Source: Rhodothermia bacterium
Lineage (GTDB): Bacteria > Bacteroidota > Rhodothermia > Rhodothermales > UBA2364
Length of the DNA stretch: 57,621 nt
Direction of reading: 5' to 3'
Assembly (NCBI GenBank): GCA_017303715.1
Contig: JAFLBZ010000029.1
Coordinates: 1-57,621, forward strand
The notes beneath the pieces were generated by a model that did no database searches, was not told the origin of the DNA, and saw nothing but the letters and a program-made list of their open reading frames with translations. Both the position numbers and the translations under genes were made by a program. Position 1 is the first letter of the stretch, and every line of letters starts with the position of its first letter. Shown in pieces: positions 14,872 through 16,821 of this stretch.

Positions 14872-16122
14872 TTACTTGGTGTGTACCACGATCAGGTCTT
14901 CCCATCGGGTGGTAAAGCGTGGGGAACGCGCCAGTTGGTGCATGTGCCAATAGGCTTTCTTAGGGCCAGTAGCGGCGATGCGGAGGGTTCCGCTTCCGTA
15001 TTTCTGGTTTATGGCATCCAAAACGGACATTATGTGGTCTTCGGCATGATGAGAGCGTTGTTCAAACAAGTCGGATTGTCTTTCGGTATTTGGATGAATA
15101 CCAGATAACATAACACCTGCTTTTTTATAGGCAAAACCGTGCTTGAAAATCTTTTCCAAAGCAGCCCAAGCGGTTCGGATGAGGCTGGGCGTATAGGCGG
15201 TGGCTTCCGGTAAGGTGGTGCTAAAGCTATTGGTATAATGTGGGCCATTGCCATAATGTTTGGTGGAGATAAATACCAAAACCGACTGGCAGACCGCATT
15301 TTGTTTGCGCAGCTTCTCGGCAGCGCGGCTCATAAAGGTTGCAATAGCTTCTCGTAAGTCCCGTAACTCGGCGACTGGGATTTGAAAAGAGCGGGTGGAG
15401 GCAATGCCCTTTTTTGCGGGTATCGTCTCCTGAAGTGCCCAATAAGAGGTGCCTCTTAGCTCGTGGAGCAGGCGTAAGCCCACCACCGTTAGGTGCTTTC
15501 GGATCCATACGTCGTCTGTTTGTTTAAATTGATAGGCGGTTTCTATGCCATGTGCGCTCAAAAAGCGGGCATATCGTCTGCCAATGCCCCAGACCTCACC
15601 TATGGGGGTGTTTTGCAAAAAGTCATCCTCTGCCGGAATAGACATCATTTCTAAGCCATTCTCCGATCTTTTGGCATGATAATTGGCGATTTTGGCCAAA
15701 GCCTTGGTTCGGGCAATGCCCACTGAAACGGGAATGCCAAGGCATTGTAAAACCTGCCTCCGTACATCATAGCCAAGTTGCACCAAATCGGTTTCTTCTC
15801 TTAGTTGGAGAAAGGCTTCATCCACCGAATAGACCTCTAATTCTTGACCAAACCCCGCCAGAACTTGCATCACTCGGTTGGATAAATCGCCATAAAGTGC
15901 ATAATTAGAAGAAAAAACGGAGACACCTTTTTCCTGAAAAACGTTTCGCCACTGGAAAGACGGTACTCCATTGGGAATGCCAAGGGCTTTGGCTTCGTTG
16001 GAGCGGGCAACAATACAACCGTCTCCATTGGACAAAACCACGATCGGACGGTTACAAAGTGCAGGTTGAAAGACCCGTTCACACGAAGCGTAAAAATTGT
16101 TACAGTCCACCAATGCAAACAT
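14872..16122 (-). CDS. umuC: DNA polymerase V catalytic subunit UmuC (Y-family)
   Basis: A 416-residue Y-family translesion polymerase. MFALVDCNNFYASCERVF supplies the first metal-binding Asp (D6), SVDEAF the Asp-Glu pair, and GIARTKALAKIANYHAK the finger/palm helix. The C-terminus (HMHQLARSPRFTTRWEDL) is the UmuC signature. The length matches E. coli UmuC (~420). The frame is open further upstream, but this start is chosen because GGAGG lies just before ATG 16122 and because the domain begins with MFALVD. It follows the umuD-like gene by 10 nt as one operon. In E. coli UmuC works with a UmuD' dimer and RecA. Here the catalytic polymerase looks intact while the UmuD partner is altered. Confidence 0.95.
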   Translation of the reverse strand: MFALVDCNNFYASCERVFQPALCNRPIVVLSNGDGCIVARSNEAKALGIPNGVPSFQWRNVFQEKGVSVFSSNYALYGDLSNRVMQVLAGFGQELEVYSVDEAFLQLREETDLVQLGYDVRRQVLQCLGIPVSVGIARTKALAKIANYHAKRSENGLEMMSIPAEDDFLQNTPIGEVWGIGRRYARFLSAHGIETAYQFKQTDDVWIRKHLTVVGLRLLHELRGTSYWALQETIPAKKGIASTRSFQIPVAELRDLREAIATFMSRAAEKLRKQNAVCQSVLVFISTKHYGNGPHYTNSFSTTLPEATAYTPSLIRTAWAALEKIFKHGFAYKKAGVMLSGIHPNTERQSDLFEQRSHHAEDHIMSVLDAINQKYGSGTLRIAATGPKKAYWHMHQLARSPRFTTRWEDLIVVHTK

Positions 16123-16132
16123 GACGCCTCCG

Positions 16133-16519
16133 CTACATACACCGAAACGAGGTGATGGCATGGATGACCACGCCCCAAATAAGCACCTCCTCGTTGATCG
16201 GAATAGGGCGTAGGTTGCCCGGATTGGTGAGCATTGGATGCCCCGGACGGTGGGTGTCGTAGCACCGGACGATGAAATTGCCTTCCGCATACGCAATAAC
16301 ACAATCACCACTTCGGGGGCGGAGCGATCGGTCTATCACCAAAAGGTCTCCATGACGGATACCTGCCTCTTCCATTTCTATGCCTGCAACCCGTACAAAA
16401 AAGGTGGCCGCCGGATGTAGAATCAGCTTTTCATCCAAAGAAAGGGGCTTATCCGCATGGTCTGCCGCCGGGTTTGGGAAGCCCGTCCGGTCGGATGTGA
16501 TCTCGTGTATTTCTGACAT
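16133..16519 (-). CDS. umuD: UmuD-like S24/LexA-fold protein lacking the Ser-Lys dyad
   Basis: A 128-residue homolog of UmuD. It aligns without gaps to E. coli UmuD at an offset of 12 residues: GFPNPAADH equals the mature UmuD' start (Gly25), and HPAATFFV, GDLLVIDRSL and WGVVIHAI all match. The nucleophile position (Ser60) is Glu48 (AGIEMEEAG instead of xGDSMxxAG), and the general-base Lys97 is Arg85 (GNFIVRC). Only 12 residues precede the cleavage-site glycine, and a TGA codon directly precedes the start ATG, so no N-terminal arm is hidden. The protein is thus predicted to be unable to self-cleave and already close to the processed UmuD' form. The codons were read directly (ggc ata gaa atg; gtc cgg tgc). 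Operon with umuC. Confidence 0.92.
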   Translation of the reverse strand: MSEIHEITSDRTGFPNPAADHADKPLSLDEKLILHPAATFFVRVAGIEMEEAGIRHGDLLVIDRSLRPRSGDCVIAYAEGNFIVRCYDTHRPGHPMLTNPGNLRPIPINEEVLIWGVVIHAITSFRCM

Positions 16520-16576: not shown

Positions 16577-16591
16577 ATATGTAACATATGT
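16577..16591. promoter_or_regulatory. Palindromic operator-like site upstream of umuDC
   Basis: ATATGT-A-ACATAT (16577-16589) is a perfect 6-bp inverted repeat around one base, and ACATATGT (16584-16591) is an overlapping 8-bp palindrome. It lies ~60 nt before the umuD start. A LexA-type or other damage-response repressor site is possible; no consensus for this lineage can be checked here. Confidence 0.4.
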
Positions 16592-16821
16592 AATTTTGTG
16601 TTGTGTATAACTTTTAGATAAAGCTGTTTTTGTGCTTGGTGTTGCGAAACTGTTTTTTGAGGTTCAGATTTCCTTGTGTACAACTCCGGCTCGGCAATGG
16701 TTTTGAATCGGTTCAAGGCGGTTTATGACAACCTTTGCCTATGATAACTGTTTGAAATTTTTTATTCCTCCCTGCCCGTTCCTTCTATCCTCTTACGTAC
16801 ATCTCCAACAAGGTTTTTCCA
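16592..16821. other. Intergenic stretch between umuDC and blaI-like promoter regions
   Basis: This AT-rich region holds no convincing ORF or RNA structure. It presumably contains the upstream part of the umuDC promoter on one side and of the repressor promoter on the other. Confidence 0.4.

Follow-up and report, generated by a model that had tools for sequence, protein, structure and literature searches.

The umuDC operon and its genome

The stretch of DNA analysed here (the window, 57,621 nucleotides in full) carried a pol V operon, that is, the genes of DNA polymerase V, on its minus strand. The first gene, umuD (positions 16133..16519, minus strand, ATG start), encoded a 128-aa UmuD without the catalytic dyad, and the second, umuC (14872..16122, minus strand), encoded the catalytic subunit of pol V with the IMS, IMS_HHH, IMS_C, and DUF4113 domains. 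The umuC gene lay directly downstream, starting 10 bases after umuD and thus translationally close to it, and the GGAGG (16127..16131, minus strand) between the umuD stop codon and the umuC ATG is its likely ribosome-binding site. A LexA-box-like element, TTACATATGTTACATAT (16577..16593, minus strand), preceded the umuD ATG by about 58-74 bases and is a putative LexA site.

The window UmuD matched Peptidase_S24 with 53.8 bits (Pfam cut-off 23.3) and the UmuD model NF007621 with 109.3 bits (cut-off 110). Its UmuC was 42% identical to E. coli UmuC from end to end and scored 391.7 bits against NF002955 (cut-off 431). In line with the metal-binding residues named in the original prediction, this UmuC kept its catalytic residues: the YSVDEAF catalytic motif, the FYASCE steric-gate region, and the QSDLF clamp motif were all present, together with the RecA-NT-like region and the UmuD'-binding C-terminal tail, whose roles have been described for UmuC (PMC6511836). 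Thus, the partner of umuD was an umuC with an intact polymerase and C-terminal tail, as expected of a pol V operon.

The window genome was a draft assembly of 4.35 Mb in 62 contigs, listed as 100% complete. It encoded RecA, and its UmuC was the only Y-family polymerase above the Pfam cut-off, with no DinB over that cut-off anywhere in the genome. On the other hand, two sister species of the same genus had DinB and lacked both umuD and umuC; the blocks flanking umuDC in the window sat on separate contigs there. The window genome had five S24 proteins, namely UmuD, two tandem LexA proteins with intact dyads, a phage-type repressor, and a LexA-like protein without the dyad, so that the second, normal umuD that the original prediction had suggested looking for was not found among them. 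The tandem lexA genes (L054:1894-3227, contig G000:C28) occurred in the same arrangement in two species of the genus. The LexA-like protein (L056:1591-2229, same contig, near 55.9 kb) had a LexA DNA-binding domain, had seemingly lost its S24 dyad (DDGM, IVRQ), and was preceded by several ACATAT elements; its sequence suggests that it is possibly a LexA-like repressor that resists cleavage.

Loss of the self-cleavage machinery

By the usual teaching, the mutagenic pol V stays off until RecA stimulates the cleavage of UmuD to UmuD'. The original prediction had held that the window protein aligned without gaps to E. coli UmuD, that both dyad residues were replaced, and that the protein could not cut itself. 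The BLAST alignment (38% identity over 118 columns) was indeed ungapped through the dyad at an offset of 12, but it had three gap positions further on. The replacements were borne out by this alignment as well as by the codons: Ser60 (E. coli numbering) corresponded to Glu48 (GAA) and Lys97 to Arg85 (CGG), leaving the protein without the Ser-Lys dyad expected of a UmuD. Since each of these codons was at least two base changes away from a Ser or Lys codon, respectively, a single sequencing error could explain neither of them.

Two further changes were absent from the original prediction: the scissile Gly was preceded by Thr12, where E. coli has Cys24 and most relatives have Ala, and the arm-docking Pro16 was replaced with Ile. 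The predicted 12 residues before a GFPxPAAD-type motif and the TGA directly before the ATG could both be read in the sequence. The arm ended in Thr-Gly, placed 12 residues before GFPNPAAD, and was half as long as in E. coli, so that the cleavable arm of ~24 residues ending in Cys/Ala-Gly was absent. The codons around the start were CCA TGA ATG TCA, and therefore a longer arm could not be read in frame. Judging from the sequence, all parts for E. coli-type self-cutting were gone from the window UmuD, and self-cleavage is impossible by known chemistry. Unlike in E. coli, the UmuD to UmuD' step would thus be closed to this protein. Its AlphaFold model (mean pLDDT 84) had the E. coli UmuD' structures 1ay9 and 1umu as best PDB matches, and the TM of 0.82 against 1ay9 (by target length) was that of a UmuD' core fold.

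We also compared 86 dyad-intact with 44 dyad-less UmuDs in one alignment, where the dyad-less counts are not independent because many of the rows were close relatives. A near-complete switch was observed at positions 16, 24, 60, 95, and 97, with a weak shift at 44 and 64, and the window UmuD carried all five main changes. Namely, Pro16 was found in 81 of the 86 dyad-intact proteins vs none of the 44 dyad-less ones, and position 24 was Ala or Cys in the former vs Thr in the dyad-less UmuDs with an arm (44/44). In addition, 22 core positions were conserved in both sets. The switching positions nearly all belonged to the cleavage machinery, and at the level of sequence this is the loss of one function, not decay. 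Thr24 was also considered as a proof of lost cleavage and was rejected. Seven dyad-intact viral UmuDs had Thr at the cleavage-site residue as well, so Thr24 alone is no block to cleavage.

Dyad-less UmuD proteins in related bacteria

The survey of the same class covered 245 genomes, and the phylum was searched with a hand-made f16-like sequence that was no natural protein and was used only to find loci. Dyad-less UmuD was also present in family f16 (same class), family f8 (same order), and family f26 (elsewhere in the phylum), while the remaining UmuDs sampled in the phylum were canonical. Intermediate matches in f22, f27, f33, f45, and f46 were rejected as dyad-less UmuDs, since most of them were LexA-like S24 proteins whose dyads were intact and whose N-terminal parts were long.

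The dyad-less state was fixed across f16, where Ser60 was replaced with Ala, Gly, Asp, Glu, or Asn and Lys97 with Arg or Cys; a few copies had Ser, and none of these had Lys. The f16 proteins had the Thr-Gly pair at the cleavage site and arms of mostly 22-29 residues, and umuC was usually adjacent. The neighbouring family f17 had canonical UmuD. Eight of the 10 UmuDs sampled in f26 carried the Ala/Arg/Thr-Gly combination, one had Lys alone replaced, and one was canonical. The arms in f16 and f26 (22-29 residues) contained the conserved motifs ETGFPSPA and NATGFGAAADD. In f8, the start of UmuD coincided with the UmuD' position or was close to it, Lys was replaced with Arg or lost, and in most copies Ser had become Ala, Asp, or Glu. 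The f8 umuD genes at L052, L038, L053, L120, and L121 encoded little or no arm and lay head to head with umuC, not in one operon. Two f8 genomes, G031 and G033, had two divergent umuD/umuC pairs each.

The original prediction had called for a check of conservation; the dyad-less state recurred in several families, and the replacing residues varied. The claim of an already shortened arm was correct for the window but not as a general rule, since most dyad-less relatives had arms of 22-29 residues. As far as these sequences can tell, the variant is more than a single-genome curiosity, dyad-less UmuD being conserved in several families.

Because f16 and f26 have full arms, there is room for the main rival explanation, in which uncut UmuD is not constitutively active and the Thr-Gly arm gates UmuC, being moved by RecA or another partner. 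The retention of conserved motifs in these arms agrees with it, and the invariance of Thr24 in dyad-less UmuDs with an arm implies a new constraint. Moreover, in a published model of pol V the UmuC cleft accommodates the UmuD' N-terminal arm close to the active site (PMC12926913). However, no partner is known, and the dyad-less variant does not depend on a long arm, as the window arm has only 12 residues and f8 has none; we therefore consider a conformational switch of this kind rather unlikely.

It is also conceivable that LexA or a housekeeping protease removes the arm, so that UmuD' is made after all. An active partner can cut E. coli UmuD S60A in trans (PMC5342242), and a LexA with an intact dyad was encoded in the window genome. 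On the other hand, this genome provided no active UmuD partner, the cleavage-site residue and the docking Pro were lost along with the dyad, and the armless f8 proteins have nothing to remove, which makes such processing very improbable.

Selection and partnership with UmuC

A pattern scan of the named genomes found no close relatives of the window UmuD and UmuC, and the selection analysis covered the umuD genes of f16 and f8. In the main f16 genera (g50, g51, g52, g54, and g56/59), the median dN/dS of umuD was 0.04-0.11; the constraint was weaker in g60/66 (median 0.26) and in f8 (0.32). The dyad-less umuD genes are under purifying selection.

These values bear on the possibility that umuDC is heading for loss and that the dyad merely drifted. 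Both genes were missing from two other species of the genus, and they were broken or lost together in G125, G132, and G133, as a decaying operon would be. In the window, however, the open reading frames were intact, the core residues were kept, and UmuC matched the full-length UmuC model. Elsewhere, dyad-less UmuDs had dN/dS near 0.1, and the same specific replacements recurred, unlike in random decay. A gene on its way out is thus a very unlikely explanation.

Taking G114-G205 as the 92 genomes of f16, we counted 38 with both UmuD and UmuC, 2 with UmuD alone, 1 with UmuC alone, and 51 with neither. In g51, umuD and umuC were unlinked yet both kept, umuC being found elsewhere in every checked genome with an intact umuD. 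At the g51 loci L079, L083, L096, and L099, the dyad-less umuD was followed by a TetR-like gene and an ABC1/AarF-like gene (both named by eye), and umuC stood alone elsewhere. In G163 and G172 (L110, L111, and L191), the dyad-less UmuD also lacked the GFPSPA motif, and no umuC was detected; this UmuD is possibly an orphan with another use or a case of early decay.

The original prediction had also proposed a UmuD with a new role; such a UmuD might manage another polymerase or a regulator without pol V. The separation of umuD from umuC in g51 and the two genomes without a detected umuC are what such a role would look like. However, the window umuD shared its operon with an intact umuC, the g51 genomes had kept umuC at another place, and the co-occurrence of UmuD and UmuC was near complete. 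Since dyad-less UmuD and UmuC were kept and lost together, a new role is not needed, and we regard it as extremely unlikely.

LexA-box-like elements

A further suggestion was that such a pol V may be held back by transcription or by RecA. In the window, the ACATAT direct repeat was found only at the element upstream of umuD. The pattern WTACATATGT had seven sites in the 4.35-Mb genome vs none for a reversed control; one other site was upstream of lexA, and an element similar to that of umuD preceded recA. Another WTACATATGT site was located ~40 bases upstream of a 370-aa open reading frame (L195:1484-2596, contig G000:C3) with a weak IMS match, which might be ImuB-like.

In f16, 30 of 40 dyad-less umuD promoters had an ACATAT direct repeat, against a background of ~2% that was itself inflated by those promoters. 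The f16 repeat fitted the Balneolaeota LexA motif TTACACATATTTTWTACATA, and because of this fit f16 is probably Balneolaceae. According to PMC7739468, this motif was validated by EMSA and its regulon includes polymerases IV and V. Similar to the window, the regulon described there has an ACATAT-type direct repeat upstream of pol V genes, with a spacing of 11 bases vs 9 in the window. The searched text of that paper did not mention UmuD or a missing dyad. The suggestion of control by transcription or RecA thus fits both the upstream element and the LexA binding published for Balneolaeota pol V promoters. With such elements at dyad-less umuD promoters, transcriptional SOS control would remain where proteolytic control is gone, the LexA sites of the window being putative.

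Number of origins

Gene trees placed the window beside UmuCs of the same order and f16 beside the canonical f17. This topology required several losses, with a minimum of four changes. However, AU tests did not reject a clade of the window and f16, of f16 and f26, or of all dyad-less rows (p 0.335-0.69), and some constrained trees scored better. Independent origins were therefore dropped as a settled claim, and no number of origins is given. The trees and the AU tests are compatible with a single origin followed by transfer as well as with several origins.

Comparison with known systems

The window operon resembled E. coli UmuD/UmuD' and pol V (UmuD'2C-RecA-ATP) in the fold and core of UmuD, the umuD-umuC order, the UmuC tail, the clamp motif, and LexA-type control, for which the site found here is a candidate. 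In contrast to E. coli UmuD, it had no Ser-Lys dyad, no Ala/Cys-Gly pair, and no Pro16, and its arm was half as long.

Cleavage is likewise unnecessary for phage P1 HumD, which is a UmuD' from its start and by its annotation functionally complements E. coli UmuD'. However, HumD begins at M-GFPSPAAD and is armless, has retained both Ser and Lys of the dyad, and lacked an umuC in the surrounding stretch that was read, whereas the window UmuD had a 12-residue arm, neither dyad residue, and its own umuC. Accordingly, the window protein scored 71.6 bits against the HumD model NF051876, below its cut-off of 120. HumD is a partial precedent for UmuD' made without cleavage. On a viral contig, a HumD-like phage protein (L265:1501-1854) had neither dyad residue (GTTYL, IMRY), in contrast to the other viral UmuDs that were read.

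The window UmuD also resembled E. coli UmuD18 and UmuD S60A/K97A, which are uncleavable; UmuD18 is short-armed as well and a partial UmuD' mimic (PMC5342242). According to the same paper, shortening the arm of E. coli UmuD to 7 residues makes the protein uncleavable and a partial mimic of UmuD', and the short arm of the window protein would fit such a mimic. These variants, however, are engineered, and the full-armed S60A/K97A proteins are nearly inactive in mutagenesis in E. coli, whereas the dyad-less state of the window is natural and conserved. In E. coli, UmuD K97A, which is full-length but uncleavable, holds UmuC at the membrane and prevents mutagenesis (PMC4552617), and therefore the dyad-less relatives with full arms would need a different behaviour of UmuC or of the arm. 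The literature searched, which consisted mostly of papers outside subscription, contained no account of dyad-less UmuD in cellular lineages.

A probable pol V without a proteolytic switch

We consider it probable that the window encodes a pol V operon without the proteolytic switch, in which UmuD acts as UmuD' from birth and control is exerted by LexA at transcription and by RecA-ATP. In this model, UmuD would fold like UmuD', would not cut itself in the cell, and would be competent from the moment of its synthesis. Like UmuD', it would bind UmuC as a dimer, with the conserved UmuC tail as the contact. LexA, which kept its dyad, would repress the umuDC operon, and the UmuD2C complex would be activated by RecA-ATP. 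A broader reading, which we put forward only tentatively, is that the Thr-Gly, dyad-less UmuDs form a distinct Bacteroidota subfamily whose pol V is switched by conformation, with the uncut arm gating UmuC and moved by RecA-ATP, and that cleavage was lost once and spread or was lost several times with the same replacements.

The loss is shared by many related bacteria, and their sequences indicate that the self-cutting of UmuD cannot be the universal control of pol V. The databases name such proteins 'autoproteolytic subunit' even where autoproteolysis is excluded by the sequence, which is a warning for their annotation. In whole lineages, umuDC is kept under purifying selection while the cleavage machinery in particular has been given up. 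These lineages provide a natural test of the purpose of the cleavage step, of the sufficiency of control by LexA and RecA-ATP, and of the role of an N-terminal arm that is never removed.
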